From Miscanthus floridulus (taxonomy: Eukaryota > Streptophyta > Magnoliopsida > Poales > Poaceae): a stretch of DNA of 64,000 nucleotides. The notes under the pieces were generated by a model. The model did not search any database. It was given only the letters and a program-made list of their open reading frames with translations, and was not told the DNA's origin. Where the stretch lies: contig NC_089595.1 in assembly GCF_019320115.1 (NCBI RefSeq), positions 108,268,158 through 108,332,157 of the forward strand, read 5' to 3'. Below are positions 31,368 to 57,818 of this stretch, in pieces. Both the position numbers and the translations under genes were made by a program. Positions within the stretch are counted from its first letter, which is position 1, and every line of letters begins with the position of its first letter.

Positions 31368-32948
31368 TGAAAGGATCAAGATGCCCAAGAGGGGGGTGAA
31401 TTGGGCTAATTCTAAATTTTCTTGCAATAATCAAATCCTACGGATAGCCCAATTAACCCCTTGTGCCTAGAAAAGTGTTTCTATTAAACTAACGCATAAA
31501 GGACTTGCAACCTATGTTCCAAACTTACTCTAGCATGACAATTCTATGAATGTAAAGACAAGTATTGAATTGCTCAAAGTAAATACTCAAAGTAAATGCT
31601 CAAAGTAAAGAGAGAGAGGAACGCGGTGATGTTTTGCCGAGGTATCGGAGAGTCGCCACTCCCCACTAGTCCTCGTTGGAGCACCCGCGCAAGGGTGTAG
31701 CTCCCTCTTGATCCGCGCAAGGATCAAGTGCTCTCTACGGGTTGATTCTTCGACACTCCGTCGCGGCGAATCACCCAAAGCCGCTCACAACTTGAGTTGG
31801 GTCACCCACAAGCTCCGCCGGGTGATCACCAAGCTCCCAATCACTACCAAGCCATCTAGGTGATGGCGATCACCAAGAGTAACAAGCACGAACTCTCACT
31901 TGACCACGCGAAGCCTAATGAGAAGATGAATGCACACTTTGCTACTCTTGATTCACTAATGAGGCCACTCTCTTGGATTCTCAAATCTCAATCACCTCAC
32001 TAGGACCTTGCTCTTCTTGGCACTCACAAACGTGTTTCTCAGCTGTTGGAATAAGCAAAAGTAACTCCACACGCGAGTGGAGCTTCTATTTATAAGACAG
32101 CCTGAAAAACGAACTGTTATGAGCTTTTGCGGGGTGACCGGACGCTCTGGTCATGTTGACCGGACGCTCCGGTCAGTTCAACCCACGAACCAGTAAAAAT
32201 GAGTTGACCGGACGCTGGCAGGGTCCAGTCACCACTGACCAGACGCGTCCGGTCACATGAAACCCTTACTAGAACCTTACTGTACTCGACCGGACGCTGA
32301 ACCCCCAGGGTCCGGTCAGTACTGACCGGACGCGTCTGGTCACAGATTCCCTTCTCTGGAACCTTACTGGAGTCGACCAGACACTGCCCCTTAGCGTCCG
32401 GTCACTTGACCCCTCCAGCGTCCGGTCACACCGAACGCAGTCTGTTGATCAAATGAACTGACCGGACCCTGCGGCCAGCGTCTGGTCGCACCGGAGCCAG
32501 CGTCCGGTCAGCATTTGACCCTCCATTCACTTCTAACTCTCGATCATATGTGAATGAAGTTTGCTCCAAAGGATCTTAGGCATTCATAGGAGCTACCTAT
32601 AGCTAGTTTTAACAAGTGTGCACCACACCTAACTCACTAGACTCATCTAGGTCAAGCTACCTGTCCATACCCCTCTTAATAGTACGGCCAAAGGAAAAAC
32701 AAAGTCCTAAACTACTCTAAGTGTCACTCCAACTCCAATCGACACTTAGAACTAGTCATCCTTAACCTTGTCGTCCATCCTTTGAAAACCAAAACGATTT
32801 CCATCATAGGAGCATGACCACCTCGAATGCCCAATCGATCTCCATTACCATGACCTAACTTAATTGCTTCTGCAAAACACACGTTAGTCATAGTAATATT
32901 GTATTGACATTAATCACCGAAATCCAACTAGGGGCCTAGATACTTTCA
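31368..32948 (-). repeat. 3' LTR of element E
   Basis: TGAAAG...CTTTCA termini and TATA-type TTATAAATA at 32087-32095 on the minus strand. Between 32130 and 32515 there are more than ten CCGGACGC or GCGTCCGGTC motifs in both orientations. Confidence 0.93.
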
Positions 32949-32979
32949 ATCTTCCCCCGTTTTGGTGATTGATGACAAT
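32949..32979 (-). promoter_or_regulatory. Polypurine tract of element E
   Basis: The minus strand runs ...ATCACCAAAACGGGGGAAGAT directly into the 3' LTR, the plus-strand primer site conserved in Sireviruses. Two further G5 tracts (TTAGGGGGAGC) lie at 33371-33380 and 33388-33397. Confidence 0.8.
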
Positions 32980-33399
32980 ACCACCTCGAGTATGTGAAAG
33001 AGTGAGGTTTTTGACGGGCTTGGTTCATATAAGCTTTTGTCAATAAGAACAAAAGTGTTAGGCAAGCTTATATGACCCAAGCCAACACAATGTACTCAAA
33101 GGATATGAATTAAGCATGAGTACAAATAACAAAGCTCATTTGCGTCGGAGTATAAATGCGGAAGCAAAGGCAAATGAGCATTACACAAGTGATATGACAT
33201 ATAAATAATGCAAAGTAGAGAGCACACATGTCATATATCACAATCACGTAGATAGCACTATCACATATATATAATAGTATGCATGAAAGTAAACACACGA
33301 ATGCATAAGTAATAGTGTATCACACAAATAAAACTCCAAATGTATATAATAAGCTAATACTATATAACTAGCTCCCCCTAAATGTCGCTCCCCCTAAGT
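32980..33399 (-). other. 3' untranslated region of element E with extra polypurine tracts
   Basis: AT-rich sequence between the env-like frame and the 3' LTR. No ORF of note. It contains the two extra G5 tracts described with the polypurine tract. Confidence 0.6.
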
Positions 33400-35886: not shown

Positions 35887-37343
35887 CTAATCTGACAAGA
35901 GGATGAACTACCGCTGATGAAGATCAACTGTCAAACTAACACTCTCAAGGCTTGGCCTCGATCCTTACTCACGAGCTTGGCTCCGAGTTGACTGCCAACT
36001 GCCACAAGAACCTCAACGGCACCGACTCGCTGCACGATAGAATAGATGGATATATGAATAAATACAATATATCTAATAGATGCGAAAGACCTAGGAAGCA
36101 AGCAATGTAGGTGCAAAATTGAGACGATGGGCAAGCTACCTGACGATCAGCGATCCGGGAAAAGAAAAGACATCACGCGGGGGAACCTTAGAACCGACTA
36201 GGGTAGATCGAAAGCCCTGAATGTGATTGGAAATCAGTGCATTGCAATTGATCTAGCTCACAGGCAAAACAAATTTGGAGCAAAGGTCTGGCCTTACCAA
36301 CGATGGAGGAGGTAGGGCTAGGGCACTGGAAACGGCCTTGAGTGGCGCTTGGTGCCTGAGAGCCGACGGTGGCACACGTGGGCGACGATGGCATGGCGAA
36401 GTGCTCGACTACGGGCTTGGCTGCGGCGACGTGGTGGCGAGCGAGGCTAGCGGATGCGATGGCACGAGGGGTTCGGCATGGGGCTGCGGTGGCGCAGCGA
36501 GCTACGACGGCGTTGGCACGGGAGAGCTGCGGCGGCGACGAAGGCACAAGCAGAGGCTAGGTCATGGCGGAATAGGTTAGCAAGGGGTACGGCAGATGCG
36601 ACTAAATAGATCCCCCCAACGCGACAGATAAGGAAACAGAGAAAGAGTCCTGATGCCGCGTGAAACCCACTGACCGGACGCTCCGGTGGTAGCGACCGGA
36701 CACTACCACCCAGCGTCCGGTCGATTCCAGAGAGGTCCAATACCTCTGGAATCGCGACCGGACGCGTCCGGTGGTCCATGACCGGACGCAGGCAAGGTCC
36801 AGTCAGTACAGCCTGTTTCTTCACCAAACGACCGGACGTTGTATCCCTTCCTGACCGAACGCACAAACGCAGCGTCCGGTCACTCCTTCTGCAGTAGTTC
36901 ACCTCCTGTGAATTGACCGAACGCTGGACAACAGCGTCCGGTGCAGCGTCCGGTGCACCTTTTTCAGCAAATCTTTAAAGTTTCTTCGCTCTGCCTGTTC
37001 TCAATCAAGTCCCAACTTGAATAAGATCCAAATAAACACCAATTGGGACTGATGTGAGTGACCTCTCTCAAACCCTCATATTTTTCAAAATATTTTGCCT
37101 TAGGCTATAATTCTTTTTAAGAAAATAGGCAATAAGAGAGCAAATAGAACAAAACGACAAGACAACATCCATGCATATGGAATACTTTGTAAGTAAATCT
37201 AGTTGCTTATCAAGTTTGATCCAAGGTCAAGCTTCTTCACATGCTTTTCGGAGGTTATCTTAACCATGTTAGACAAACCCTATATGCATTGCCAAAAATT
37301 AAACATGTTGCATATTACAATGAATGCAAGGGACAACACAAGC
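35887..37343 (-). promoter_or_regulatory. Region between pol and the env-like ORF with a CCGGACGC motif cluster
   Basis: No ORF on the sense strand belongs here. Between about 36665 and 36960 there are about a dozen CCGGACGC or GCGTCCGGT motifs in both orientations, the same type of cluster seen in U3 of this element's LTRs. It lies 0.8-1.1 kb upstream of the env-like ATG in sense orientation. A role as internal promoter or enhancer is inferred. Confidence 0.5.
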
Positions 37344-40300
37344 TTAATTTTTAGAGAAGTTGCTAAAGTCAAGTACATTGAGCTCATTCCGCAATCTACA
37401 AAATGTAGCCTCATCTAGTGGTTTAGTGAAGATATCCACTAATTGATCTTTGGTTCTTACACCTTCTAGTGATATATCATTTTTAGCAACATGATCTCTT
37501 AGAAAGTGATGGTGGATATCTATGTGCTTGGTGCGAGAGTGTTGAATCAGATTATTAGCAAGTTTTACCGTACTTTCATTGTCACACAAAAGAGGTACCT
37601 TTTCTAGAACTACACCATAGTCTAGCAAAGTTTGTTTCATATATAAAATTTGTGCACAACAAGCACCCGCGGCAATGTATTCCGCTTCGGCGGTGGACAA
37701 AGCCACACTATTTTGTTTCTTGGAGGACCAAGACACAAGTGATCTACCAAGCAAATGGCACCCTCCGAATGTGCTCTTTCTATCAACTTTGCATCCGGCG
37801 TAATCCGAATCGGAATAGCCAATTAACTCAAATAAAGCTCCTTTGGGATACCAAAGGCCAATGTTTGGTGTGTGCTTAAGATACCTAAGGATTCTTTTTA
37901 CGGCAATTAAATGTGTTTCCTTAGGACTAGCTTGAAATCTAGCACACATACACACACTAAACATGATGTTGGGCCTAGATGCGGTTAAATATAACAAGCT
38001 ACCAATCATAGAATAGTAGAGAGTTTAATCAACCGGGTTACCTCCCTCATCTAGGTCGAGATGTCCATTGATAGGCATTGGTGTCTTGATTGACTTACAT
38101 TCATCCATCTTGAATCTCTTGAGAAGATCTTTTGTGTATTTCTCTTGAGAGATGAAGATGCCTTCTTTCATTTGCTTGACTTGAAAACCAAGAAAGAATG
38201 TAAGCTCACCAATCATTGACATCTCGAACTCCTTCGACATCAATTCACCAAATTCTTTGCATGAGTCTTCATTTGATGATCCAAAGATGATATCATCAAC
38301 ATATACTTGACAAATGAAGATATGCCCATCAAGCTTCTTGGTGAATAGTATGGTGTCGACCTTCCCAATGGTGAAGCCCTTCTCAATGAGGAAGTCCCGA
38401 AGGCGCTCATACCAAGCTCTTAGGGCTTGCTTAAGCCCATATAGTGCCTTAGACAACCTATAAACATGATTAGGATATCTAGGGTCTTCATACCCGGGAG
38501 GTTGATCAACATAGACTAGTTCATTAATAAAGCCATTTAAAAAAGCACTTTTCACATCCATTTGATATAGTTTCATTTCATGATGTGATGCATATGCAAG
38601 AAGGATACGGATGGCTTCTAATCTTGCAACCGGTGCAAAGGTCTCTCCAAAATCCAAACCTTCAACTTGAGAGAACCCCTTTGCAACTAGTCTTGCCTTG
38701 TTCCTCACAACAACACCTTGATCATCTTGCTTGTTGCGGAACACCCACTTTGTTCCAATGACTCTTGCACCTTTTGGTCGCTCTTCAAGAGTCCAAACTT
38801 CATTGCGAGTGAAGTTGTTCAACTCTTTATGCATGGCATTGATCCAATCCGGATCTTTAAGAGCTTCTTCTACCTTGGTAGGCTCATAACAAGAGACAAA
38901 AGAGTGGTAAGCAATAAACGAAGCAAGTTTTTGAGATCGAGTCATTACACCCTTTGATGGACTCCCTATGATGAGATCTTGTGGATGATCTTGTAGGAGA
39001 GGTGTATTTCTTCTATTGACCACTTGAGGAGGAGGTTGTGGAGCATCAATATCTTGTGCTTGTACCACCATTTGCTCATGGGAGATATGAGTATCTTCAT
39101 TTTCTACTCTCCCATCTTTTTTCACCATCTTGTGGCACACTTGATGAAGAAGGTTGGTTAATGACTTATACATCATCTTCATCATCTTTTGGCTTGATGT
39201 CTCCCACCGGAATATTCTTCATAGCCTCCCTCAATGGTTCATCACCTACATCATCAAGATTCTCATGTGCTCCTTGGGAGCCATTAAATTCATCAAATTC
39301 CACATCATATGTTTCTTCAACCAAGCCGGTGGCATGATTAAATACTCTATATGCTTTGGACTTCAATGAGTAACCAACAAGAAAACCTATATCACAACGT
39401 CTTTGAAACTTCCCTAGGTGTTGCCGCTTCTTGTAGATGTAGCATTTGCAACCAAACACCCTAAAGAATGAGACATCCGGCTTCTTTCCATTGAGCAACT
39501 CATAAGGTGTCTTGCCAAGGAACTTTTGAAGGAATATGCGGTTGGATGCATAACATGCGGTGTTGATTGCTTCCGCCCATAGAACTTCGGGGGTGTTGTA
39601 CTCATCTAGCATTGTCCTTGCAAGAGTGATCAAAGTTCGGTTCTTCCTCTCAACTACACCATTTTGTTGAGGAGTATAAGTTGCGGAGACTTCATGTTTG
39701 ATTCTAACTTCATCACAATAGGCTTCAATGTTTGTGTTGTCAAATTCTTTCCCATTGTCACTTCTAATCTTCTTGAGCTTCACTTCAAATTCATTTTGAG
39801 CTCTCTTGGCAAACTTCTTAAAGCAAGATGCAACTTCGGATTTGTCATGAAGGAAGAACACCCATGTATACCTTGAATAGTCATCCACAATCACAAGACA
39901 ATAGAGATTCCCTCCCAAACTCTTGTATGTTGTTGGTCCAAATAAATCCATGTGTAGGAGTTCTAGCACTCTTGTGGTTGACATAAAAGCTTTGGTTGGA
40001 TGAGTGTTTGCAACTTGCTTGCCGGCTTGACATGCACTACAAAGCTTGTCCTTCTCAAACTTCACATCCTTCAACCCTCTCACCAAATCATTCTTCATAA
40101 GCTTCTTGAGTGAGCTCATCCCAACATGAGCAAGTCTTCTATACCATAGCCACCCAAGTGTTGTTTTGGTGAATAGGCAAGTCTTCAAATTTGCATCTTC
40201 GGAGGTGAAGTCAACTAGATATAAGTTGTTGTATCTAAATCCATTGAATATCACTTGATTGTCATCTATCTTGGATACAACAACCTCCTTCTCGGTGAAC

Positions 40301-40572
40301 AAGCATTGAAAGCCAAGATCACACAATTGCCCAACGGATAGAAAGTTGAAGCTCAATGAAGCAACATAGAGCACATTGGAGATGGAATGATCATTTGATA
40401 TTGCCACTTTGCCCAATCCTTTAACCTTGCCCTTTGAATTATCTCCAAATGTTATTTTCTCTTGTCCATCTACCTCTTCATCTAGTGAGGTGAACATACG
40501 AGGATCACCGGTCATATGTTGAGTGCAACCACTATCAATAACCCAATGACTTCCACCGGTCTTGTAGTTCAC
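37344..40572 (-). pseudogene. Element E pol (protease, integrase, RT, RNase H), broken by stops
   Basis: Three adjacent minus-strand pieces. 40572-39166 has the protease (WVIDSGCTQHMTGD) and integrase (HVGMSSLKKLMKND with CSACQAGK zinc finger; catalytic D in LHMDLFGPT, D in RSDNGKEFD, E in GVVERKNRT). 39185-38025 has RT ([30 protein letters not shown], catalytic YVDDIIFGS). 38009-37344 has RNase H (YSDSDYAGC, STAEAEYIAAG, RTKHIDIHHHFLRDH). Integrase before RT proves Copia. Breaks: a TAA near 39166 with a frame change before RT, and TAA at 38025 where the family has Gln. Three stops also separate gag from protease (40606, 40588, 40575). Confidence 0.92.
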
Positions 40573-40608
40573 CTACACATAAGAGATTCAAGCTTTAGGA
40601 ATCCAAAC

Positions 40609-42990
40609 TTATTGAGGGCCCTTCACCTTCTCAACAAGTGACTTAGCCACACAAATCTTCTTAGGCCTACTCTTGTTAGGGGGTCCTAAGAACATGACTT
40701 TCATCTTTCCTCTAAAATCTTTTCTAAGCATGCAGTGAGCATTAAAAGCAAAGGGTCTAGCATGCTTGGGCAAGGGTTGTGGCGGTGGAGTTTGACACTC
40801 ATGAGCAAAGTGGCCTTCTTGTCCACACTCAAAACATCTCTTTGGCTTTGGCTTTGGCTTTGATTGTTGTTGTTGAGCTTGAGCCTTCTTCTTCTCTACA
40901 CTTGCCACATATCCAATACCACTTCTATCCATCTTCATGATGGTGTTCATAAGTAGCTCACTTTGAAGGTGCTTGCCTCTAGCAAACTTGCTCAACCCAA
41001 TCTTGAGATGCTCTTTCTCCAACTTAAGCTTCTTATTTTCTTCCTTTAGAGCCTCATCTTTCTTCTCTTCCTTGAGCTTCTTGTTTTCTTCTTTGAGCTT
41101 CTCATTCTCAAGGATCAACTCTTTGTCATGATCAAGAGTTTCTAGCACAATGATGTTGTGGTTTTTCATCTCTTCAAGATCTTTCATGAGCTTCTCATTA
41201 TTACTCTTGAGGTTGACATACTCATCATAGTCATTGCACTCAACCACTTGCTTGCCTTTGCTACTAGATCCTTGCTCAATGCTCTCATCAATTAAGTCAT
41301 CACATGAGGTAGCTATATCAATCTTGACAATATGGTTAGTAGCATCATGTGGCTCATTTGGTAAAAATTCTTGAGCAATAACAAGCGTATCATGATTGAT
41401 CTTAAGAGTAGTGTATTCATCTTTTAGCTTGTTGTGGCTAGTGATGAGCTCATTGTGCACCCACTCAAGTTTATCATGTTTATCTTTAAGCTCTTTCTTA
41501 GAAGATTTGAGCTCCTTGAGTTTGGATGATATAGCATCATTAGTTTCTCTAAGCTCATCATTAGCCTTTTCCAATGTATCACATTTTGCTAAAAGTGAGT
41601 CATTTTTAGCATCAAGCTTTTCATTTGTAGCTCTACTCTTTCTAATGATCTTAGTGTATTTTCTTAGTATTTTGACAAGATCATCATATGTAGGTGAATC
41701 ATCATCATCGCTATCACTATCATCATCACTAGCTTGCTCATCATCACTACTATCATCATTCTTAGTTACCTTGCGTTCACCCTTGGCCATAAGGCATAGG
41801 TGTGTAGAGGATGATGGCAATGGTGACGGTGAAGATGCAAGATCAATAGCAATGGCGGCCACCTTCTCATTGTCACTATCATCATCGGATGATCCACTTG
41901 ATGAATCAATGTCCGTGAGCCAATCACCGACAATGTAGGCCTTTTCACCCTTCTTCTTCTTGTAGAAGTCCCTCTTTTTGCCATCTCTCTTCTTGTATGG
42001 CTTGTTCTTTTTCTTCTCATCTTCATCTTCATTGCTTGAGTCATCTTTCTTGCCCTTGTTCTTGTTCTTGAACTTGTCTTTCTTGGGCTTTGTGCATTGA
42101 TGAGCTAGATGGCCAAGTTCACCACAATTGTAGCAATCCATCTCAGAGATTGGCTTTCTTCTTGAGCTAGTGAAGAACTTCTTCTTCTTGCCATCAAACT
42201 TGATGCCACTCTTGTTTAGCTTCTTTAGCATCTTGGCGGTCTTCTTCACCATGAGAGCAAGACTTTCTTCATCATCTTCTTCATCACTTGAGCTCTCATA
42301 CTCAAGTCTTGCTTTGCCCTTATCTTGGCTAGCTTTGAATGCTAAGTCCTTCTCTTTCTTCTTTGTAGAGGACGAGCCATCTTGTGGCGTGATGTGCATA
42401 TACATCTCATGAGCATTGATCTTTCATAAGATTTGTGTCGGTGTAGCGGCGGAAAGATCACCTTGATGTAGCACGGTCACAATGTGCCCATATTTGTCAA
42501 TAGGGAGGACACTCAAGATCTTTCTCACAACGTCGGATGGTGACATTTGAGTAAGTCCAAGCCCATTGACTTCCTCTACAAGAACATTTAAACGAGAATA
42601 CATTTCATTAGCACTTTCTTTGGGAAGCATCTTAAAAGAATTTAGCTTTTTAATCACAAGATGATAGCGTTCCTCACGCTCACTCTTGGTTCCCTCATGG
42701 AGCGCACAAACGTCTGACCATAGTGCATGGGCGTCTTTGTGGTTCCTTACACGGTTAAACACATCTTTGCAGAGGCCTCTAAAGATGGTGTTTCGAGCCT
42801 TTGCATTCCATTTTTCATAGTTAACCTCATCGCCTTGTAGGTTAGTAGCATCCCGAGGTTTTGGGAAGCCTTGAGAGGTGGCTCTAAGAATACCAACGTC
42901 TAGAGCTTCTAAGTACGTCTTCATGTGGATTTTCCAATATGGAAAGTCATCTCCCTCAAAGATAGGAGGAGGTCCATCCCCGTGAGACAT
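40609..42990 (-). pseudogene. Element E gag (two zinc knuckles, long coiled coil), one internal stop
   Basis: The N-terminal 188 codons (42990-42424) form the Copia gag core: FPYWKIHMKTYLEALDVGI, ARNTIFRGLCKDVFNRV, YHLVIKKLNSFKMLP. A TGA at 42424 (family usually Gly, GGA) splits it from a 598-codon open part. That part has a first knuckle CYNCGELGHLAHQC, Lys- and Asp-rich low-complexity tracts, about 250 residues of coiled coil, and a second knuckle CFECGQEGHFAHEC. A long coiled coil plus two knuckles is characteristic of Sirevirus gag. One base separates it from an uninterrupted frame of about 794 codons. Confidence 0.9.
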
Positions 42991-43028
42991 CTTGCTCTAA
43001 GCGATTAAGCTTAAAACGTGAGCACAAG

Positions 43029-43040
43029 GCTCCGATACCA
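43029..43040 (-). other. Primer-binding site of element E
   Basis: The minus strand reads TGGTATCGGAGC two bases inside the 5' LTR, one transition away from the initiator-methionine site in elements C and F. Confidence 0.8.
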
Positions 43041-43042
43041 AT

Positions 43043-44623
43043 TGAAAGGACCAAGATGCCCAAGAGGGGGGTGAATTAGGCTAATTCTAAATTTTCTTGC
43101 AATAATCAAATCCTACGGATAGCCCAATTAACCCCTTGTGCCTAGAAAAGTGTTTCTATTAAACTAACGCACAAAGGACTTGCAACCTATGTTCTAAACT
43201 TACTCTAGCATGACAATTCTATGAATGTAAAGACAAGTATTGAATTGCTCAAAGTAAATACTCAAAGTAAATGCTCAAAGTAAAGAGAGAGAGGAACGCG
43301 GCGATGTTTTGCCAAGGTATCAGAGAGTCGCCACTCCCCACTAGTCCTCGTTGGAGCACCCGCACAAGGGTGTAGCTCCCCCTTGATCCGCGCAAGGATC
43401 AAGTGCTCTCTATGGGTTGATTCTTCGACACTCCGTCGCGGCGAATCACCCAAAGCCGCTCACAACTTGAGTTGGGTCACCCACAAGCTCCGCCGGGTGA
43501 TCACCAAGCTCCCAATCACCACCAAGCCATCTAGGTGATGGCGATCACCAAGAGTAACAAGCACGAACTCTCACTTGACCACGCGAAGCCTAATGAGAAG
43601 ATGGATGCACACTTTGCTACTCTTGATTCACTAATGAGGCTACTCTCTTGGATTCTCAAATCTCAATCACCTCACTAGGACCTTGCTCTTCTTGGCACTC
43701 ACAAACGTGTTTCTCAGCTGTTGGAATGAGCAAAAGTAACTCCACACACGAGTGGAGCTTCTATTTATAAGGCAGCCTGAAAAACGAACCGTTATGAGCT
43801 TCTGTGGGGTGACCGGATGCTCCGGTCATGTTGACCGGACGCTCCGGTCAGTTCAACCCGCGAACCAGTAAAAATGAGTTGACCGAACGCTAGCAGGGTC
43901 CGGTCACCACTGACCGGACGCGTCCGGTCGCATGAAACCCTTACTGGAACCTTACTGTACTCGACTGGACGCTGAACCCCCAGGATCCGGTCAGTACTGA
44001 CCGGACGCGTTCGGTCACAGATTCCCTTCTCTGGAACCTTACTAGAGTCGACCGGACGCTGCCCCTTAGCGTCCAGTCACTTGACCCCTCCAGCGTCCGG
44101 TCGCACCGAACGCAGTCTGTTGATCAAATGAACTGACCGGACCCTGCGGCCAGCGTCCGGTCGCACCGGAGCCAGCGTCCGGTCAGCATTTGACCCTTCA
44201 TTCACTTTCAACTCTCGATCATATGTGAATAAAGTTTGTTCCAAAGGATCTTAGGCATTCATAGGAGCTACCTAGAGCTAGTTTTAACAAGTGTGCACCA
44301 CACCTAACTCACTAGACTCATCTAGGTCAAGCTACCCGTCCATACCCCTCTTAATAGTACGGCCAAAGGAAAAACAAAGTCCTAAACTACTCTAAGTGTC
44401 ACTCCAACTCCAATCGACACTTAGAACTAGACATCCTTAACCTTGTCGTCCATCCTTTGAAAACCGAAATGATTTCCATCGTAGGAGCATGACCACCTCG
44501 AATGCCCAATCGATCTCCATTACCATGACCAAACTTAATTGCTTCTGCAAAACACACATTAGTCATAGTAATAGTGTATTGACATTAATCACCGAAATCC
44601 AACTAGGGGCCTAGATGCTTTCA
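43043..44623 (-). repeat. 5' LTR of element E
   Basis: Same length and termini as the 3' copy. TATA-type TTATAAATA at 43762-43770 on the minus strand. CCGGACGC-type motif cluster at about 43808-44190. Confidence 0.93.
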
Positions 44624-44684
44624 GTTTCCCTGGTGTATTTGGCGATGTTGGTAGGGGTTGGAACTGCTATGGGAACGACACTTT
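44624..44684 (-). pseudogene. 61-bp sliver of element B gag between elements E and F
   Basis: Minus-strand sequence encoding VPTPTNIAKYTRET, which precedes the gag core in the 31367 piece and follows the 57819 piece. It includes one copy of each element's duplication (GTTTC at 44624-44628, ACTTT at 44680-44684). Confidence 0.85.
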
Positions 44685-47600
44685 TGTGGCAGAACCTCCT
44701 AAGAAATTGGGCCCACATGCACCTATCGTTGTCTTAACAGACCTCGGATAGCGTACAAGAGTTCCCAACAACTCAACAGGTCTGTCGGGTGTCCTAGGGA
44801 GACCCGAATCATCCACGATTCTCTTTTCAAACAGGATCCCAATCACAGTCATTGCAGATTACAACAGTTTATTCAAATATATACCAGAGTAAAAGATAGC
44901 GGAAGTCTTAAGATAACATAATTACAAACCAGTTGTTTTCAAACTTACAATACCATAAGTGTTATACAACCATAGTAGCGGGATAATATTACATTAACTT
45001 TATTTATCAAACAAACTAGTGCCTTGTCCAAAGGCCATTCATTACTCCTCATCATCATCGTTGACTTCAAACACTGACATGCAGCAGGGACCAAAACAAG
45101 CCTGCGCATGCGACTCACCTGCAACAAGGGTTAACAAACCCTGAGTACAAAGGTACTCAACAAGACTAACCCGACGTAACGGGGTGTAATACTTTAGAGA
45201 TGCAGGGATTTGGGGCAAGGTAAGGATGTAGCAAGATTCAAAAGTTCTTTGCCAAAAGCTTACTATCCTTCATTCTATTTTCAAGTTTACCACTAAGTTC
45301 TTTTAGTTCATTATCTCAACTAAATATACATTTCCCATATTCCATTCCTTCCCATTCCATTCTTTTTCTCATATTTTAGTAATTCACCAGTACTACATTG
45401 CTTCTGTAATGAATCGAGTCTCCATATCCGTGGAGCACCGGCAATTCGAATTGATTCAAGTCCCAGCTGGGGATTCCTTATCACACGACATATGTAGAAC
45501 TTAATCTTGCATATATCAACCTCGCTATCGGATCTTCCTATACTAAGCCGTCTCCACGCCACCCGAGAGTACAGCACACCTCAAATCCGGCCACATTCCA
45601 GCCACGAGGGTACACGCTACTCCCGCCATCTCTCCACTCCCAGTGCGCGGGCATTCGTCTTAGTATCGGATTAGCCGAAGTAGGCTTACCGGAGTATGTG
45701 ACCAGTACTACAAAGTGTCTCGTTCAGAAGATCCACAATGAGTGGCCTTTAAGCGACATAGTCGGTAACATTACCCAACATTCAAGATAAGTCACCCGGC
45801 TAGTCTCTAATTCATTCTACATTCTTTCTTTCTTTGGCCAGTATGCCATCTTTGATTGTATCAAAACTTTTGCTTTGAAAGCCTATCATAAAGCATACTA
45901 AGCACACTACGCCTTTATAAATGAAAACATCTTCAAGGATGGTAAACAATTATCAAGGTAGGTAATGCATCAAGTAGGTAACATTTGAATTAAACAACTT
46001 AATGCAATAAATAACATAGGTGATAACTTTTCAAAGTAAACAAGGTAAGGGCTTAATGCATAAACCGGGGCTTGCCTTCGTTGACGATTTCCGGTTCCGG
46101 ATTAGGACCACAATTATCAAATCCCGTGACAACCGGGGATTCTTCCAGAACTTGCTCAACTAGAATCGTTTCGTTCTCGGATTCTACACGAAATGATAAC
46201 ATATGCTTTAACATGATGATAATGTAAACATGATGCTTCCACAGTACATAAAATGTAAAAACACCCGCAAACGATTTGATTTCGCGGTACAGTTGTAAGC
46301 CAACAAAACCAACCCGTAACCCTATCATCAAGAACCACACATGAGACTTGACCTAATGGATCTTGGAACCCTACTAGTCACAAAACATGACCAAAACAAG
46401 ATCCATCACTAATCAACACTTAGGGTTTCGACGAGTTAACTTGTTAATGACCTTGGTTATCACATGAAATGTCATTAAGACTTACTAATCACAACATAGA
46501 TATTAGTTCAAAAACTAATTAAGGTACTAAGGATCATTATAAGTTAATGACCCAAGTCAACAATCAATTCTAAAATCAAACAAAATCTTAATTGATTAAA
46601 CATTGATTAAATGAATAATTAATTAAATACTTAAGTCTATATTAGGTACAAATTAAACTTTGTCCAATTAAGCTCAAATTTTTATGTAAGCTTCCTCATG
46701 ATAAATTAGTGTACCAAAATAAATTTCATAATTTTTGGAGTTATATAGTGACCTACAAAAATCATGGAAATTGCATTTTTCAATTAAAGGAGTGAATATT
46801 TGAACATTCAAAATTTAACTAAATTTCAAATTTCAAATTTTTAAATCATACTAGAACATGTACAGAAGCTACACAAAAATTTTCAGAATTTTTGAATGTG
46901 TAAATAAATTCCTACAAAATTGCCAAATCTCTGCACTATTCAAAATCAGAAAATCATCAAAACTCACTATTCTTCTTCCTCAGCATCACTGACAGCCTGA
47001 CCCCACGCGTCAGCGGCAGTGGGCAAGGCACGGCGGCACGGCCAGCTCCGGCCAGCAAAACGCGCCGGTGATGACTCTCCGACGCTACGGATTGCTCCTA
47101 CATGATCTTCTACTTCCTACGAATCGAACTCGGCTATCAGAACGGAATAAGGTACACCGGAGACACCTCCACACCGGGCATGGCGGGCGGAGCACGTCGG
47201 TGAACGGCGTAAACACGGTGATGGTACAGTAGGGACTGAAGCGAAGTGATAAACACGTTCAGGAGCTTACTGCGATCACGATGGCGGACTCGGTGCAGCC
47301 GGAGATGGTCTGGAGCAGCCTGGCCACGGTGAGGCAGTCGCGGCGGAGCTCCGACCGGTCACGGGGAAGATGGGTTACGCCGGGCGATTCCGGCCAACAC
47401 CAGCGACGTGAGTAAGTCGAGGAGGAGCGCAAGACCAATGCGATCACGTTGACGTAGCTGGGAACGACTGACGCGGCTCGACGAGACCAACGGCGAGCGG
47501 CGGAGCTATGCGGTGGCGGAGCAGAGCAGAGGGAAGAAATGGGAGCGACGGCGATGACGGTGGCTATTTATAGCCTGGAAGGAGGCGTACGGTGTCGCCA

Positions 47601-48373
47601 ACGCACGGGCGAACTCGCCACGGTGACAACGGCGTGTCACCGCGCGTGAAAGCGGCGAAGAAGGGCGGCGGCAAGCTGACTGCGTGTCGACGGCGGTGAG
47701 CAGTGAGGTGGAGATGAAATTTTGAAAAATTTACAAAACTGCCATTGCGTCCATTTCTCAAATTACTCTTAAATTTTCTAAAGAAGTTGAAAATCTCCAA
47801 AAATGAAAGTTGCACAACTTTTCAAGTACTACAACTTTGATTTAAGAAACATTTTCAAATTCTACCTCCATTTTGAATTTCACATTTGGGGTACATTTAA
47901 AGATTTGAATCATTTCAAAATTACTCCAAATTTTATATGTAAACTTGAAAAACTTTGAATACCAAAGTTGATCCTTATAAAATAATCTCCAACTTTGCTT
48001 TTTACCTCAACCCCAAATTCCTCATGGATTTTGAATTAGTAAAAAGGGGCAAAAAGGACTTTTAAAATTTGAATATGAATTCAAATTTGATTTGTCTTCC
48101 TTTTACTTAAATTTTGATTTTTGACCAGTAACATGGCCCATTAGGGTTATTTGAGTCAAAGGACATATGACCTCACATGATCACATGAAATTTAACCCTT
48201 GTGGTCATGATCTGTATTTAGGGTTTTTGAAACATATCACATGAAATAACAACATTATGAAATAAACCTTATTTAGTGAATACATTCAAAACTTTATACT
48301 AAATGAATGCTTTACAATGCACATGATGACATGTCAAATTTTAGTATTAGGTCAAAACACCAGAGGTGTTACA
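44685..48373 (-). repeat. 3' LTR of element F
   Basis: On the minus strand it runs TGTAACACC...GCCACA. TATAAATA lies at 47565-47572. Short ORFs inside are duplicated identically in the other LTR and are not genes. Confidence 0.97.
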
Positions 48374-48542: not shown

Positions 48543-51500
48543 CTAGATAGAAGCGAAAAAGTCAGGAAAATTTTCTTCCAAGTAATCCTCGGACTCCCAA
48601 GTAGCTTCATCTTCAGTGTGTTGATTCCATTGTACTTTGTAGAACTTGATTGTACGTCTACGAGTGACTCGATCTTTCTGATCTAAGACTTTAATGGGGT
48701 ACTCGGCATAAGTCAAATCAGGTTCTAGTTCTACACCACCAAAGTCGATTTCCTGGTCAGGTACTTGAAGACACTTCTTTAACTGAGATACATGAAAGAT
48801 ATCATGCACCGCTGACATGTGATCTGGTAGCTTGACGCGATAGGCGACTGGTCCACATCGCTGTTGGATCTGAAAAGGACCGACATAACGGGGCGCCAAC
48901 TTTCCCCGAATCCCAAAACGATGAACTCCTTTCATCGGTGATACCTTGAGGTAGACATAATCTCCCACTTTAAATTCTAGCGGTCGTCTCCTCTTATCAG
49001 CATAGCTTTTCTGTCGGGACTGAGCTATCTTCATATTAGCTTGTATGAGTTTAACTTTCTCTTCCGCTTCCTTGACCACATCCGGTCCAAAGAACCAACG
49101 TTCTCCAGCTTCTGACCAATTTAAAGGCGTTTGGCACCTACGGCCATACAATGCTTCGAATGGTGCCATTTTAATGCTCTCTTGATGGCTGTTGTTATAT
49201 GAGAATTCAGCCAAGGGAAGACATTCATCCCATTTAGTACCAAAGGAAAGAACACATGCTCTTAACATATCTTCAAGAATTTGATTTACCCTTTCGGTCT
49301 GTCCGTCTGTTTGCGGATGATAAGCAGAACTACGGATAAGTTTAGTTCCTAAAGACTCATGTAAACTTTTCCAAAACTTGGATATGAACAATGATCCTCT
49401 ATCAGAGACAATGGTCTTGGGTGCCCCATGCAGACTGAAAATTCTATCAAGATAAAGCTTTGCATACTGCTCCGCTCGATATTTATCTCTGACTGGTATG
49501 AAATGAGCTATCTTGGTTAGACGATCAACAATAACCCATATTGAATTGTAGCCTGCAGATGTCCTAGGCAATCCCACGATAAAGTCCATACAAATATCTT
49601 CCCACTTCCAAGATGGAACTGGCAACGAATGTAATGGACCTGCAGTCTTCATATGAACCGCTTTGACTCTCTGACAAATATCACACTTGGCTACATATTG
49701 AGCTATTTCTATTTTCATTTTGGTCCACCAATATCTCTTTCTCAGATCATGATACATTTTGTTGCTACCCGGATGAATGGAGTATCTTGTAGAATGAGCT
49801 TCATCGAGAATCTGCCTTCGTAGCTCCGGATTTTTGGGTACTACCAACCTATCCTTAAACCATACAACATCCGACTCATCAATCTTGAAACAGGTTGGTT
49901 TTCCAGATTTGACTTTATCCTTAATATGGGCTATGCCCTTACTTTTCTGTTGAGCAGCAATGATCTGGTCTTCGATAGTGGACTCAACTACAATATTGGA
50001 CAGGGAACCTTGTTCTATGATTTGTAAATCCAGATGCTCCATCTCTTGACACAATGTTTGCTGCATAGGTTCTACAATTAGGCAATGACAATGACTCTTG
50101 CGACTCAGGGCATCGGCAACCACATTAGCCTTGCCCGGATGATAATGCACTTCTAAGTCATAATCTTTAATAAGTTCTAACCATCTCCTTTGCCTCATAT
50201 TCAGCTCTGACTGGGTGAAGATGTATTTCAAACTTTTGTGGTCCGTATAGATATGACATATATTGCCCAATAAATAATGTCGCCAAATTTTGAGTGAATG
50301 GACAACAGCAGCTAATTCAAGATCATGGGTGGGATAATGTTCTTCGTGCTTCTTGAGTTGTCTGGAAGCATATGCTATGACTCTGCCTTCTTGCATAAGA
50401 ACACAGCCAATACCAACTCCAGATGCATCACAATAGATATCGAATGGCCTCTCGATATCAGGTTGTGCTAATACTGGTGCCGTTGTCAACAACTTCTTCA
50501 ATGTCTGAAAGGCCTCCTCACATCCGGTTGACCATACGAACTTTGTTTGATTTTTCAACAGTCCAGTAATTGGCTTCGCAATTCTGGAGAAGTCAGGGAT
50601 AAACCGACGGTAATACCCTGCCAACCCCAGGAAGCTACGAACTTGATGAACAGTTGTAGGTGCTTTCCAATTAAGGACTTCTTCTACTTTGCTCGGATCA
50701 ACAGCTATACCTTCAGCAGATAGCACATGACCCAGAAATTGTACTTCCTCCAACCAAAATGCACATTTGCTGAATTTGGCATATAGTTGGTGATCTCTTA
50801 ATCTTTGTAGAACAATACGGAGATGTTCCGCATGTTCCTCTTTGCTCTTAGAGTAGATAAGAATGTCATCAATAAACACCACGACAAACTTATCCAACTC
50901 AGGCATGAAAACTGAGTTCATCAGGTACATGAAATGAGCCGGGGCATTGGTCAGCCCAAAAGACATGACTAGATACTCATATAGTCCATATCGGGTAGTA
51001 AACGCTGTCTTTGGCACATCTTCACGTCTGATCTTAATCTGGTGGTAACCTGATCTTAAGTCTATCTTAGAGAATACCTTAGCTCCCGCAAGTTGATCAA
51101 AAAGCAAATCAATTCGGGGTAAGGGATATTTGTTCTTGATGGTGACTTCATTTAATGGCCTATAGTCAACACATAACCTTAAGGTTTGGTCCTTCTTCTT
51201 CACGAATATAGCAGGGCATCCCCAAGGTGATGAACTGGGTTGAATGAAACCCTTGTCTAACAACTCTTGTAGTTGCATTTTTAATTCTGCTAATTCTTTC
51301 GGTGGCATCCTATATGCTCTTCTGGACACTGGTGCTGTCCCTGGTTTCAAATCAATTCTGAACTCTACGTCGCGGTCTGGTGGCAGACCAGGTAGGTCAT
51401 CGGGAAAGACATCCGTAAACTCACATACCACTGAAATTCCCTCGGCTCCTTCAATAATAGTTGCACTAACTGTCTCCACTGTGCTCTTAGGAAAAGGAAG

Positions 51501-53039
51501 TTGGATGAGAAGTCGGGTTTTGCTGTCAGGTGCATTTACCCTTATTGTTCTATGTAGAACATCTATGATAGCCTCGTGTTGAGTTAGCCAGTTCATACCA
51601 AGGATCACATCTATATCTTGATCCTTTAATATCAGCATATTAGTAGGGAACTCATAACCTCCCAAATCAATAGGTACATGCTGAACTACCTCCCTTGTAC
51701 AGATTCGTCCCCCAGGCGACTGTATATGATAGGGTTCTTTTGTTTCCCCAATAGCTATCCCATGCTTCACGACAAATGTACGATTGATGAATGTATGGGA
51801 TGCACCAGAATCAAATAAGGTAATTGCAGGATGCTTAGCAATGGGAAACATACCCATCATAACTGGTTCTCCTTCTGGAATAGATTCCACTTGCGTATAG
51901 AATACCCTTCCAGTTTTCTTCTCAGCCGGACCCTTTTGATGGTTCTGAGCATTGCCCTTGTACTGATTTGGAGTTTGATTAACAGGGGCTTTGGTTGCAT
52001 TAGGATTGTTCTTCCGAGGATACGGACATTCTCGGGAAAAATGCCCGGGTTTACCACAATTATAGCATGGAAAATTGTGATTCTGAGGAGTAGCATTGCG
52101 GTTTGCATTATTGGCATTGTTCTGCTGTTGTGGTACTTGATGAGTATAAGGTGTATTAATTGCAGGGCGAATGAAGATTTGCTGCCTGCTTTGGCCTTGT
52201 TGTGGGCGGAATGGCGTACGGCCATGATTCTGAGGATGGTATACTATCTTCTGACGCTTGCCACTTGATGATCCGGAAGCAAATATTTTCTTCTTCTTCG
52301 CCTCTTTGTGTCGGCGGTAATTTTCTTCCGAAGCGATAGCAATGTTGATTGTTTCGTGGTAAGTTGCATTACCACAGGCTGCCATCATTGTCTGCAGTTT
52401 AGTGTTCAAGCCTCTAAGAAAATGATTCTTTTTCTTTCTGTCCGTATTGACGTACTCAATAGCATACTGAGACAGATGGTTGAAACGCCCAACATAATGC
52501 ATCACCGGGTGCTCCCCTTGCTTAAGAGCCAAGAACTCTTCCAGCTTCATGGTCATCACACCGTCCGGAATATAATGTGCCCTGAAGGCATCCTTGAACT
52601 CCCTCCAGTTGATTTGGTGACCAACGGGCTGTACTGCTATCAAATTTGCCCACCAAGCACCAGCAGCTCCTCGGAGTTGCTGTGCCGCAAACCTTGGTTT
52701 TTGAACCTCAGTACAGTGGATTAGCTCGAACTTTTGCTCTATTGTCCTAAGCCAATCATCAGCTTCTAAAGGTTCGTCTGCCTTTGAGAATACAGGCGGA
52801 CGTGTGTCAGTAAAATCCACATATGTTGACTCGTCGTTTCCATTATTACGACGGCCACGATTAGGGTATGGTGCCTGCTGGTTCTGCGCCAACTCCCTTA
52901 ACAGCCTGGCATTCTCTACCGTTGCGTTGACGAGTGCAGCTATGGCATCTGCCATAGTCGAGGGCATTGGTGGAGGATTTGGGCACTCATCATCATCATG
53001 CGAGCCACTAGCACCAGTTCGGGTGATAGGACGAGGCAT
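48543..53039 (-). CDS. Element F gag-pol polyprotein with C-terminal chromodomain, intact
   Basis: 1498 residues in one frame. Gag core about 85-260 ([28 protein letters not shown]); CCHC knuckle 325-338 ([14 protein letters not shown]); aspartic protease with DSGA at 410-413. RT about 580-760, with [11 protein letters not shown] and FIDD at 722-725; RNase H from about 865, with catalytic D871 in CDASG. Integrase zinc finger residues include C1119 and C1122, and the catalytic triad is D1152, D1213 and E1249. The chromodomain is about 1442-1490 (EYPIKVLDQ...[18 protein letters not shown]); of the three cage aromatics of HP1, Tyr1447 and Trp1471 are present and the third is His1474. RT before integrase marks Gypsy, and the chromodomain marks a chromovirus. 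Catalytic residues are all present, so it is probably functional. Confidence 0.97.
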
Positions 53040-53198
53040 CTGTTAGAGAAACACATTTACTTACATTATTCTTTATTGAAAGCTTTTAAAAGGTTGCATA
53101 CCACAAAGGGTTCTTATTTATATTACATGTCTTGTATCCCACAAGACAACCCTGGTTTTCTAGGAAAGCAGTAAAGGAACTACTTCTACTCCAAGCTT

Positions 53199-53735
53199 TC
53201 AGTCTTCGGCATCCGTGCCCGTATCAGACGAAACCTCATCTTCATCTGAGAAGTACACTAACTCCTCAGGATCCTCCTCCTCTTCTTCATTCTCGACTTC
53301 TCCTGGAGCTACAATCATTTCTTCATCGGTAACTTCACCATCCCCATGAGGAGGATGAAGTTGAGCATACAGCATATGGACATTCTCATGCAGGATGGCA
53401 TTGTCCATCTCCAGGTCCTCTACATAGAACTCCAACTCATTGACGCGTTCATTGGCCGCATCTTCTCGTGTCCAGGCTTCATTCCGCAGCTCCATGGTCA
53501 TGGTGATACCCCTTTGCATTTCCGCCAGCTCTTCTTGGTCTTTAGCATGAGCTCGACGAAGAGTGTTGAGCTCCTTGTTAAGGTTCTCGACGTTGGCGGG
53601 GTTGCTCGAAGATCCTTCCTCTCCTGGGTTCTTGGAACTTCCTTCACCAAGCTCGTGATTTCTTGGTGCCAATTGGTGACAAGGGACTCCATGAGGTCCG
53701 GTGGACTTGCGTGCGGTTTTCTTGGTCTTTGCCAT
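53199..53735 (-). CDS. Accessory ORF of element F: H3-tail-like N-terminus, coiled coil, acidic C-terminus
   Basis: 178 residues on the sense strand between the primer-binding site and gag. Residues 2-13 (AKTKKTARKSTG) match histone H3 residues 1-12 at 10 of 12 positions, with the differences R2K and Q5K. Lys4, Lys9 and Ser10 equivalents are kept, and a QLA three residues after a Pro echoes the H3 stretch that follows. Residues about 50-130 form coiled coil (NVENLNKELNTLRRAHAKDQ to LEMDNAILHENVHMLYAQL). Residues 135-178 are strongly acidic (EVENEEEEEDPEELVYFSDE). There is no transposition domain. No function is known to me. The frame is open and stop-free, as expected for a very young copy. 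It could be translated from the genomic RNA upstream of gag or from a spliced RNA; neither can be seen here. Confidence 0.7.
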   Translation of the reverse strand: MAKTKKTARKSTGPHGVPCHQLAPRNHELGEGSSKNPGEEGSSSNPANVENLNKELNTLRRAHAKDQEELAEMQRGITMTMELRNEAWTREDAANERVNELEFYVEDLEMDNAILHENVHMLYAQLHPPHGDGEVTDEEMIVAPGEVENEEEEEDPEELVYFSDEDEVSSDTGTDAED

Positions 53736-54110
53736 AGCCTGAAGAATTTAGGGTAGGACTATAAGAATAGCTTGAGGATAACGGAGGTTAGCAAGAATGG
53801 GATTGACATTACTTACCCAACCACTATTAAGGGGAATTAATATGCAATGTGCTTAAGCATGATGCATGAATCGATCTTACGAATCTAAGTACCAAAAGAT
53901 TAATATAATCATGAGTACTAGATTTTTATAATACATAGGACAAACCTAATCATATTATCCGCCACAAACTTTTCAAATAAGTCAGGATTGAGTCTGGATC
54001 AAAGGTAAGAAGAAAGAAATTGAACTTTCAAAATATCATGTTTACTTTCCTTGATCCAAATCATTTTGAAGGTTTTCCAAAGTAACCTACAATGATCTTA
54101 GATGGGAACT

Positions 54111-54122
54111 GCTCTGATACCA
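54111..54122 (-). other. Primer-binding site of element F
   Basis: The minus strand reads TGGTATCAGAGC two bases inside the 5' LTR, complementary to the initiator-methionine tRNA 3' end. Confidence 0.9.
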
Positions 54123-54124
54123 GC

Positions 54125-57100
54125 TGTGGCAGAACCTCCTAAGAAATTGGGCCCACATGCACCTATCGTTGTCTTAACAGACCTCGGATAGCGTACAAGA
54201 GTTCCCAACAACTCAACAGGTCTGTCGGGTGTCCTAGGGAGACCCGAATCATCCACGATTCTCTTTTCAAACAGGATCCCAATCACAGTCATTGCAGATT
54301 ACAACAGTTTATTCAAATATATACCAGAGTAAAAGATAGCGGAAGTCTTAAGATAACATAATTACAAACCAGTTGTTTTCAAACTTACAATACCATAAGT
54401 GTTATACAACCATAGTAGCGGGATAATATTACATTAACTTTATTTATCAAACAAACTAGTGCCTTGTCCAAAGGCCATTCATTACTCCTCATCATCATCG
54501 TTGACTTCAAACACTGACATGCAGCAGGGACCAAAACAAGCCTGCGCATGCGACTCACCTGCAACAAGGGTTAACAAACCCTGAGTACAAAGGTACTCAA
54601 CAAGACTAACCCGACGTAACGGGGTGTAATACTTTAGAGATGCAGGGATTTGGGGCAAGGTAAGGATGTAGCAAGATTCAAAAGTTCTTTGCCAAAAGCT
54701 TACTATCCTTCATTCTATTTTCAAGTTTACCACTAAGTTCTTTTAGTTCATTATCTCAACTAAATATACATTTCCCATATTCCATTCCTTCCCATTCCAT
54801 TCTTTTTCTCATATTTTAGTAATTCACCAGTACTACATTGCTTCTGTAATGAATCGAGTCTCCATATCCGTGGAGCACCGGCAATTCGAATTGATTCAAG
54901 TCCCAGCTGGGGATTCCTTATCACACGACATATGTAGAACTTAATCTTGCATATATCAACCTCGCTATCGGATCTTCCTATACTAAGCCGTCTCCACGCC
55001 ACCCGAGAGTACAGCACACCTCAAATCCGGCCACATTCCAGCCACGAGGGTACACGCTACTCCCGCCATCTCTCCACTCCCAGTGCGCGGGCATTCGTCT
55101 TAGTATCGGATTAGCCGAAGTAGGCTTACCGGAGTATGTGACCAGTACTACAAAGTGTCTCGTTCAGAAGATCCACAATGAGTGGCCTTTAAGCGACATA
55201 GTCGGTAACATTACCCAACATTCAAGATAAGTCACCCGGCTAGTCTCTAATTCATTCTACATTCTTTCTTTCTTTGGCCAGTATGCCATCTTTGATTGTA
55301 TCAAAACTTTTGCTTTGAAAGCCTATCATAAAGCATACTAAGCACACTACGCCTTTATAAATGAAAACATCTTCAAGGATGGTAAACAATTATCAAGGTA
55401 GGTAATGCATCAAGTAGGTAACATTTGAATTAAACAACTTAATGCAATAAATAACATAGGTGATAACTTTTCAAAGTAAACAAGGTAAGGGCTTAATGCA
55501 TAAACCGGGGCTTGCCTTCGTTGACGATTTCCGGTTCTGGATTAGGACCACAATTATCAAATCCCGTGACAACCGGGGATTCTTCCAGAACTTGCTCAAC
55601 TAGAATCGTTTCGTTCTCGGATTCTACACGAAATGATAACATATGCTTTAACATGATGATAATGTAAACATGATGCTTCCACAGTACATAAAATGTAAAA
55701 ACACCCGCAAACGATTTGATTTCGCGGTACAGTTGTAAGCCAACAAAACCAACCCGTAACCCTATCATCAAGAACCACACATGAGACTTGACCTAATGGA
55801 TCTTGGAACCCTACTAGTCACAAAACATGACCAAAACAAGATCCATCACTAATCAACACTTAGGGTTTCGACGAGTTAACTTGTTAATGACCTTGGTTAT
55901 CACATGAAATGTCATTAAGACTTACTAATCACAACATAGATATTAGTTCAAAAACTAATTAAGGTACTAAGGATCATTATAAGTTAATGACCCAAGTCAA
56001 CAATCAATTCTAAAATCAAACAAAATCTTAATTGATTAAACATTGATTAAATGAATAATTAATTAAATACTTAAGTCTATATTAGGTACAAATTAAACTT
56101 TGTCCAATTAAGCTCAAATTTTTATGTAAGCTTCCTCATGATAAATTAGTGTACCAAAATAAATTTCATAATTTTTGGAGTTATATAGTGACCTACAAAA
56201 ATCATGGAAATTGCATTTTTCAATTAAAGGAGTGAATATTTGAACATTCAAAATTTAACTAAATTTCAAATTTCAAATTTTTAAATCATACTAGAACATG
56301 TACAGAAGCTACACAAAAATTTTCAGAATTTTTGAATGTGTAAATAAATTCCTACAAAATTGCCAAATCTCTGCACTATTCAAAATCAGAAAATCATCAA
56401 AACTCACTATTCTTCTTCCTCAGCATCACTGACAGCCTGACCCCACGCGTCAGCGGCAGTGGGCAAGGCACGGCGGCACGGCCAGCTCCGGCCAGCAAAA
56501 CGCGCCGGTGATGACTCTCCGACGCTACGGATTGCTCCTACATGATCTTCTACTTCCTACGAATCGAACTCGGCTATCAGAACGGAATAAGGTACACCGG
56601 AGACACCTCCACACCGGGCATGGCGGGCGGAGCACGTCGGTGAACGGCGTAAACACGGTGATGGTACAGTAGGGACTGAAGCGAAGTGATAAACACGTTC
56701 AGGAGCTTACTGCGATCACGATGGCGGACTCGGTGCAGCCGGAGATGGTCTGGAGCAGCCTGGCCACGGTGAGGCAGTCGCGGCGGAGCTCCGACCGGTC
56801 ACGGGGAAGATGGGTTACGCCGGGCGATTCCGGCCAACACCAGCGACGTGAGTAAGTCGAGGAGGAGCGCAAGACCAATGCGATCACGTTGACGTAGCTG
56901 GGAACGACTGACGCGGCTCGACGAGACCAACGGCGAGCGGCGGAGCTATGCGGTGGCGGAGCAGAGCAGAGGGAAGAAATGGGAGCGACGGCGACGACGG
57001 TGGCTATTTATAGCCTGGAAGGAGGCGTACGGTGTCGCCAACGCACGGGCGAACTCGCCACGGTGACAACGGCGTGTCACCGCGCGTGAAAGCGGCGAAG

Positions 57101-57813
57101 AAGGGCGGCGGCAAGCTGACTGCGTGTCGACGGCGGTGAGCAGTGAGGTGGAGATGAAATTTTGAAAAATTTACAAAACTGCCATTGCGTCCATTTCTCA
57201 AATTACTCTTAAATTTTCTAAAGAAGTTGAAAATCTCCAAAAATGAAAGTTGCACAACTTTTCAAGTACTACAACTTTGATTTAAGAAACATTTTCAAAT
57301 TCTACCTCCATTTTGAATTTCACATTTGGGGTACATTTAAAGATTTGAATCATTTCAAAATTACTCCAAATTTTATATGTAAACTTGAAAAACTTTGAAT
57401 ACCAAAGTTGATCCTTATAAAATAATCTCCAACTTTGCTTTTTACCTCAACCCCAAATTCCTCATGGATTTTGAATTAGTAAAAAGGGGCAAAAAGGACT
57501 TTTAAAATTTGAATATGAATTCAAATTTGATTTGTCTTCCTTTTACTTAAATTTTGATTTTTGACCAGTAACATGGCCCATTAGGGTTATTTGAGTCAAA
57601 GGACATATGACCTCACATGATCACATGAAATTTAACCCTTGTGGTCATGATCTGTATTTAGGGTTTTTGAAACATATCACATGAAATAACAACATTATGA
57701 AATAAACCTTATTTAGTGAATACATTCAAAACTTTATACTAAATGAATGCTTTACAATGCACATGATGACATGTCAAATTTTAGTATTAGGTCAAAACAC
57801 CAGAGGTGTTACA
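54125..57813 (-). repeat. 5' LTR of element F
   Basis: Identical in length to the 3' copy with two substitutions noticed. TATAAATA on the minus strand at 57005-57012 would start the genomic RNA. GC-rich U3/R sequence lies upstream of about 57150. Confidence 0.97.
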
Positions 57814-57818
57814 ACTTT

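Follow-up and report, generated by a model that had tools for sequence, protein, structure and literature searches.

Extra open reading frames are common in plant retrotransposons, and most of them have no assigned function. According to published work, the frames upstream of gag in grass Tekay/Del chromoviruses (ORF0s or 5' ORFs) are inferred to encode mostly hydrolases, and an ORF0 type of this kind is reported as limited to grasses (PMC3485330). The 5' ORFs of maize and sorghum Tekay elements are described as an alpha/beta part followed by a long helix and were compared with a dsRNA-binding protein (PMC11728184). The ORF0s of Retrosat2, RIRE3, RIRE8, Z. mays Tekay and Sb7 resemble, by description, the ORF0 analysed here: they are located upstream of gag in elements with long LTRs and a Tekay polyprotein, and they combine disorder with a long helix. 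The survey of Neumann et al. (2019) set a minimum of 250 codons for extra ORFs (PMC6317226), so the present ORF0 of 178 codons falls outside it. Unlike the published readings as hydrolases (PMC3485330) or dsRNA-binding-like proteins (PMC11728184), the reading given here concerns a start that resembles the tail of histone H3. A term count over the main texts of PMC3485330, PMC11728184 and PMC7264820 gave no instance of the word "histone", and a description of an H3-tail-like ORF0 in plant retrotransposons was not found among the listed literature matches from open-licence papers. The nearest parallels are viral histone mimics, parasite proteins with a short histone-tail-like stretch, namely hepatitis delta antigen (PMC6972770) and the disputed case of ARKS in SARS-CoV-2 ORF8 (PMC10833455). 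The ORF8 stretch is ARKS or ARKSAP (PMC10833455), whereas in ORF0 24 N-terminal residues align from the first residue of H3, in a retrotransposon protein and ahead of a coiled coil.

The LTR retrotransposon to which the ORF0 belongs is intact and very young, and it lies on the minus strand of the window (the whole stretch of 64,000 nucleotides that was analysed). According to the repeat comparison, the 5' LTR (54125..57813) begins TGTAACACC and ends TGCCACA, the 3' LTR corresponds to 44685..48373, and the pair shows 2 differences across a 3691-bp match. The preliminary description had called the element young, which agrees with these 2 differences in 3691 positions; if 1.3e-8 substitutions per site are assumed for each year, the insertion age is estimated at about 20,000 years. 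The flanking sequence contains the target-site duplication AAAGT (element orientation) at 57814..57818, with its partner at 44680-44684. The primer-binding site TGGTATCAGAGC (54111..54122, minus strand), read from the sequence 2 bases off the 5' LTR, is presumably of the tRNA-Met type.

The gag-pol polyprotein (48543..53039, minus strand; ORF list and Pfam) is intact, with 1498 aa in a single frame. Its Pfam matches are ordered as gag, zinc knuckle, protease, RT, RNase H, integrase and C-terminal chromodomain, the order found in Tekay/Del elements. The integrase core (29.9 bits, cut-off 32.6) and Chromo (23.2 bits, cut-off 25.1) matches are both slightly below their cut-offs, and the zinc-binding integrase part is well over its own. 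The C-terminus of the integrase (48546..48755, minus strand) carries a Tekay-type (type II) chromodomain according to Pfam, motifs and a PDB match to the MPP8 chromodomain (E 0.0019). Tekay chromodomains are characterized by (K/R)-x-(L/T)-R-x-(K/R) and EExTWExE, with W45 kept (PMC3350952). The corresponding motifs here are RVTRRR and DEATWESE, in which the first E is D and the cage Trp is retained. His occupies the third cage position, and by reading of the sequence the first cage residue appears to be missing too. By its domain order and chromodomain motifs, the element is assigned to the Tekay-type chromoviruses.

Other repeats are present in the window. A minus-strand element at 31368-44630 was recognized by eye as copia-type. 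Its LTRs of 1.59 kb (31368-32956 and 43043-44630) are 96.5% alike, the interval 37344-40572 contains pol-like ORFs, and two knuckle-like motifs occur in an ORF at 40609-42405. Between the outer end of this element and the 3' LTR of the chromovirus there are about 55 bp. About 1 kb at 27120-28150 is 70% alike to the chromovirus LTR and is probably a piece of an older related element. Tandem-like repeats (79-83% alike) are located at 6701-7014 and 12924-13816.

ORF0 (53199..53735), supported by the ORF list and by relatives, encodes an accessory protein of 178 aa between the primer-binding site and gag, as an extra forward ORF of a grass Tekay element does. The interval had been given correctly in the preliminary description; the strand, as specified here, is minus, with the first base of the ATG at 53735, and the plus strand contains stops across the interval. 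The stop at 53199-53201 is read through by four relatives of the window's family (P0024, P0027, P0041 and P0063), which continue with WELGV.IV..., so the end of ORF0 is not fixed. In the 64-kb window, tblastn with eight relatives gave no significant match for a second ORF0. Pattern scans for DNA relatives gave 74 matches in viral contigs and 15 in genome contigs, none of which was confirmed. The leader of 389 bases carries 8 ATGs ahead of ORF0. By consensus look, a possible intron of 78 bases (53739..53816, minus strand) extends from a donor-like GTAAGT at 53816 to an acceptor-like TTCTTCAG that ends at 53739, immediately before the ORF0 ATG. ORF0 and gag share one reading frame; the spacer between them (53040..53198, minus strand) is in the same frame with stops, and it ends in TTTCTCTAACAG, which is 3' splice-site-like and directly precedes the gag ATG. 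Judged by this consensus look only, alternative splicing could yield ORF0 and gag-pol from a single transcript.

The N-terminus of ORF0 is MAKTKKTARKSTG. Residues 1-25 (MAKTKKTARKSTGPHGVPCHQLAPR; 53661..53735, minus strand) form the H3-like module as defined by alignments, shuffles and relatives. In the AlphaFold model, built with a 53-row alignment, residues 1-45 are mainly disordered, residues 46-126 (53358..53600, minus strand) form a single long helix, and the acidic end, residues 127-178 (53202..53357, minus strand), is disordered. The pLDDT of the helix is 96-98 in the blocks of 51-120 and 89 in 121-130. The hydrophobic moment of the helix peaks at 102-104 degrees, and 74% of the a/d positions are hydrophobic, as in a heptad-repeat coiled coil. 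The net charge is +6 for residues 1-25, -3 for 26-45, -10 for 46-126 and -23 for 127-178. The proposed architecture of a coiled coil plus an acidic tail is thus borne out by the model and the heptad analysis. Because of the heptads, ORF0 is likely to be a multimer, in which several tails would be displayed together. Pfam matches to ORF0 are all below the curated cut-offs, and no histone family is among those listed; in place of a histone fold, the long helix follows the tail.

The first 12 residues of ORF0 after Met (AKTKKTARKSTG) match those of H3 (ARTKQTARKSTG) at 10 of 12 positions without a gap, and P..QLA follows with a displacement of one residue relative to H3. Both features had been noticed at the outset and were reproduced by alignment. 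The 25-residue start aligned to H3 1-26 scores 54, which none of 20,000 composition-keeping shuffles equalled (best 48); the Gumbel P is about 2e-5. The tails of H4, H2A and H2B score 18-22. In a PDB search with the full window ORF0, an H3 peptide chain appeared as the second of 6 matches at E 0.77. Since the whole protein finds H3 only at this E value, the resemblance judged from the window copy by itself is suggestive only, and the case for H3 likeness rests on the relatives.

The whole-length ORF0 search gave 143 proteins with E up to 1, of which the best 120 were used. The search with a 15-row alignment, in which scoring was confined to the 7996 candidates with the most words in common, gave 2241 proteins with E up to 0.1, of which the best 120 were used. 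With the N-terminal 48 residues of P0070 as the key, 38 proteins were found. The total was 256 distinct sequences including the window, and 173 of them give a pattern-aligned start block of 24 residues. Among the remaining 83, 75 start downstream or are partial, and 8 contain an HQL that the pattern missed; these include P0010, P0033 and P0255, which carry an H3-like start all the same. A PDB search with residues 1-28 of P0082 yielded 120 matches (best E 0.018), and the 60 of these that were listed all bear an H3 tail, one being named Cse4 but H3-like at its start. Two shuffles of the P0082 start gave 0 and 2 matches, with no histone among them. The shuffle tests and the PDB matches of the relatives' starts, together with the shuffle controls, indicate that the tail match exceeds chance, as the preliminary description had supposed.

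Simple patterns split the 173 blocks into family A (n=27, the window's family), B+ (n=33) and C (n=113). K9 is present in 171 blocks, T6 in 170, Lys or Arg at position 4 in 172 and at position 2 in 151, and R8 in 150. The position of H3 K18 is Lys in 0 of 173 and that of K14 is Lys or Arg in 32, so that K9 is the sole H3 lysine retained throughout. The families carry their own replacements: R2 is Lys in A (25/27), K4 is Arg in C (111/113), A7 is Pro in B+ (30/33), and position 14 is His in A (27/27), Lys in B+ (32/33) and Ile in C (107/113). Families A, most of B+ and P0255 begin M-A-[RK]-T-K. Family C has Pro at position 1 in 94 of 113 blocks, its typical start is M-P-P-R-T-R-K-T-A-R-K, and some members may have upstream in-frame starts, for example MHHAKNYVNK...MPPRT. 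Because of this Pro, and because 98 of the 173 blocks have no Met directly ahead, a free A1 is not general. An N-terminal position suited to H3 readers and writers, as first proposed, thus holds for A, most of B+ and P0255; it does not hold for family C with Pro at 1 and Arg at 4, nor for blocks that do not follow Met, and it is weakened by Pro at A7 in B+. A reader of free A1-R2-T3-K4 as the common target was considered and dropped, since family C shifts the register.

A lack of the start in other family copies had been named earlier as one possible refutation. At the protein level the relatives retain the start, according to the 173 blocks, the family alignments and the identities among representatives, though A1, A7 and K4 vary by family. 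Among nine representatives, the mean identity is 78% in the start block and 30% in the body, with the start higher in 36 of 36 pairs. This sample is biased, since four of the nine (P0250, P0251, P0253 and P0255) came from the N-terminus-keyed search; among the five from whole-length searches, the start exceeds the body in 10 of 10 pairs. Within families (full-length sequences, 17 of A, 9 of B and 110 of C), the variation of the start block relative to the body is a factor of 0.63 (A), 0.67 (B) and 0.37 (C). Body windows of equal length are less variable than the start in 52 of 130 cases in A, 7 of 140 in B and 0 of 143 in C; family A thus has stretches that are more conserved than its start. 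Changes of Arg to Cys, His, Gln or Trp, such as the decay of methylated CpG leaves behind in copies that are silenced, account for 5 of 24 changes within the block in A, 6 of 18 in B and 35 of 133 in C. Cys19 of the window ORF0 may have arisen by such decay.

P0255 provides the closest likeness to H3. It is a single sequence of 326 aa on one 1043-bp contig and starts MARTKQTARKSTGGRVPRHQLAPRN. Its module MARTKQTARKSTGGRVPRHQLAPR is identical to H3 at 19 of 24 positions without a gap, with a score of 91 that was reached by 0 of 20,000 shuffles (P about 2e-9). The start gave 136 PDB matches (best E 3.1e-5), and the 60 listed comprise H3 and its variants, H3 chimeras and one chain that bears the name Cse4 but has an H3-like start. 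P0255 has V, H, P, R and N in common with the other ORF0s. It agrees with H3 in having Q5 and G13 and in lacking the extra residue. As judged from these residues, it is an intermediate between H3 and the other ORF0s. Its single-sequence model shows a helix, three strands, a helix and then a helix of 125 residues, with low confidence outside the long helix; this alpha-beta-beta-beta-alpha arrangement plus long helix fits the maize and sorghum Tekay 5' ORFs as outlined in PMC11728184. Homology of the P0255 body to the other ORF0 bodies was considered, and the best score (11.4 bits, to P0253) is not convincing.

The unit to be explained is a module of 24 residues that matches H3 1-23, is common to proteins with strongly diverged bodies, and is followed by a linker, a helix and an acidic tail. 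Residues 1-12 are nearly identical to H3 in the window copy, and most relatives continue with P-R-x-Q-L-A-x-[KR]. Unlike H3, ORF0 has no histone fold, the acetylation sites are mostly replaced, and an extra residue is present in the families seen, except in P0255. On a tree of 19 proteins, from which P0255 was left out, A7, K14 and R2 are scattered in such a way that the simplest account takes the H3 residue as ancestral, by reading of the tree and not by formal reconstruction. The families share derived residues and each retains different H3 residues. This nested pattern is as expected if the start of an H3 gene was captured once and then diverged; repeated gain by selection is another possible source. 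We consider it very probable that the module is either H3-derived or H3-selected.

We propose that an ancestral form of these ORF0s acquired the module from a gene for host H3 and that selection has preserved it. ORF0 would oligomerize, and several H3-like tails, with K9 beside Lys or Arg at position 4, would be on show. The use as such a multivalent ligand, with K9 methylated or not, is the one that we favour; the ligand could bind host readers or writers of the K4-unmethylated/K9 state. The silencing machinery would then be titrated or redirected, or the complex of the element would be tethered to chromatin. SHH1, which reads unmethylated K4 together with methylated K9, and the SUVH/KYP class are among the plant readers or writers of this state and are candidate partners, as is ADCP1. 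In family C, Arg4 is not lysine-methylatable and might resemble a permanently unmodified K4. The plant protein ADCP1, which reads H3K9me2, makes contact with R2, K4 and K9me2, and not with A7, R8 or S10 (PMC6318295). Among the H3-binding patterns known to us, this one is the best fit to the residues conserved in the families, namely K9 and a positive charge at positions 2 and 4. That the module works through H3-tail-binding chromatin factors, as a decoy or a tether, has in our estimate somewhat less than an even chance. Of its variants, the decoy is possible but doubtful, and the tether is an unlikely candidate.

An explanation without mimicry starts from the part of the module that is kept most strictly. 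In the 15-row alignment the invariant N-terminal columns (window numbering) are P14, G16, V17, P18, H20, Q21, L22, A23 and R25, and in the 53-row alignment they are M1, H20, Q21, L22 and A23. V, H and R of these columns depart from H3, and the P-x-G part contains the extra residue. The stretch varying least is GVPRHQLAPR, in which V, H, P and R depart from H3. By these alignments, the H3-like half is conserved with changes specific to each family, while the second half is under stricter conservation and resembles H3 less. The second half plus its flank gave 3 PDB matches, none of them a histone, so that part of the constraint is not H3 mimicry. An H3 fragment may have given the ORF its start, with selection now acting on a basic disordered peptide around GVPRHQLAPR for RNA or another partner, and with no binding of H3 factors. 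The fixed departures from H3 within the most invariant stretch, the missing H3 match of the second half, and the loss of A1, K4 and A7 each in some family fit this history. However, K9, T6 and Lys or Arg at 4 are almost invariant and are located outside GVPRHQLAPR, and we regard the history without mimicry as unlikely.

The module could instead be a nuclear-import signal borrowed from H3, through which importins would bring ORF0 with a complex of element RNA or cDNA into the nucleus. Kap123 recognizes H3 1-28 as an import signal (PMC5677370), and the 5' ORFs of grass Tekay elements are predicted to be nuclear (PMC11728184). The best-kept stretch corresponds to H3 15-24, and the charge at H3 K23 is kept (Lys or Arg in 167 of 173). 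Kap123, however, uses K14 together with K23 (PMC5677370), and a positive residue at position 14 is found in only 32 of 173 blocks, family C having mostly Ile and family A His. The conservation of K9 and T6 is also not required for import. We consider this explanation improbable.

The module might also be a ligand of the type II chromodomain of the element itself, such that ORF0 tails bind the integrase C-terminus and ORF0 is held in the integration complex. Both parts are encoded by one element, type II chromodomains have no known partner according to PMC6317226 and PMC3350952, and the cage Trp is retained. On the other hand, with His as the third cage residue and the first seemingly absent, the cage is only partly kept, and dicot Tekay relatives have no ORF0 or a dissimilar one (PMC3485330 and PMC11728184). 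This arrangement is very unlikely. A chance likeness of a basic N-terminus, which could be argued from the window copy with its P of only about 2e-5 and its whole-ORF0 E of 0.77, is hardly credible given the relatives, chiefly P0255 (P about 2e-9; E 3e-5), and the conservation across families.

Returning to the reading as a ligand of chromatin factors, we hold as a tentative possibility that a lineage of plant LTR retrotransposons captured the host H3 tail and keeps it as a multimer displayed by a coiled coil, which would be written and read by the K9 silencing machinery of the host. The element would then compete with, or ride on, its own silencing marks. A conserved H3-tail module offers a concrete and testable function for these extra ORFs, and the peptide is short enough for immediate testing in vitro. 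As the same element carries a type II chromodomain, the ORF0 module may help to identify the partner of that domain. It would also connect a protein encoded by a transposon to the H3K9 pathway, by which plants silence transposons.
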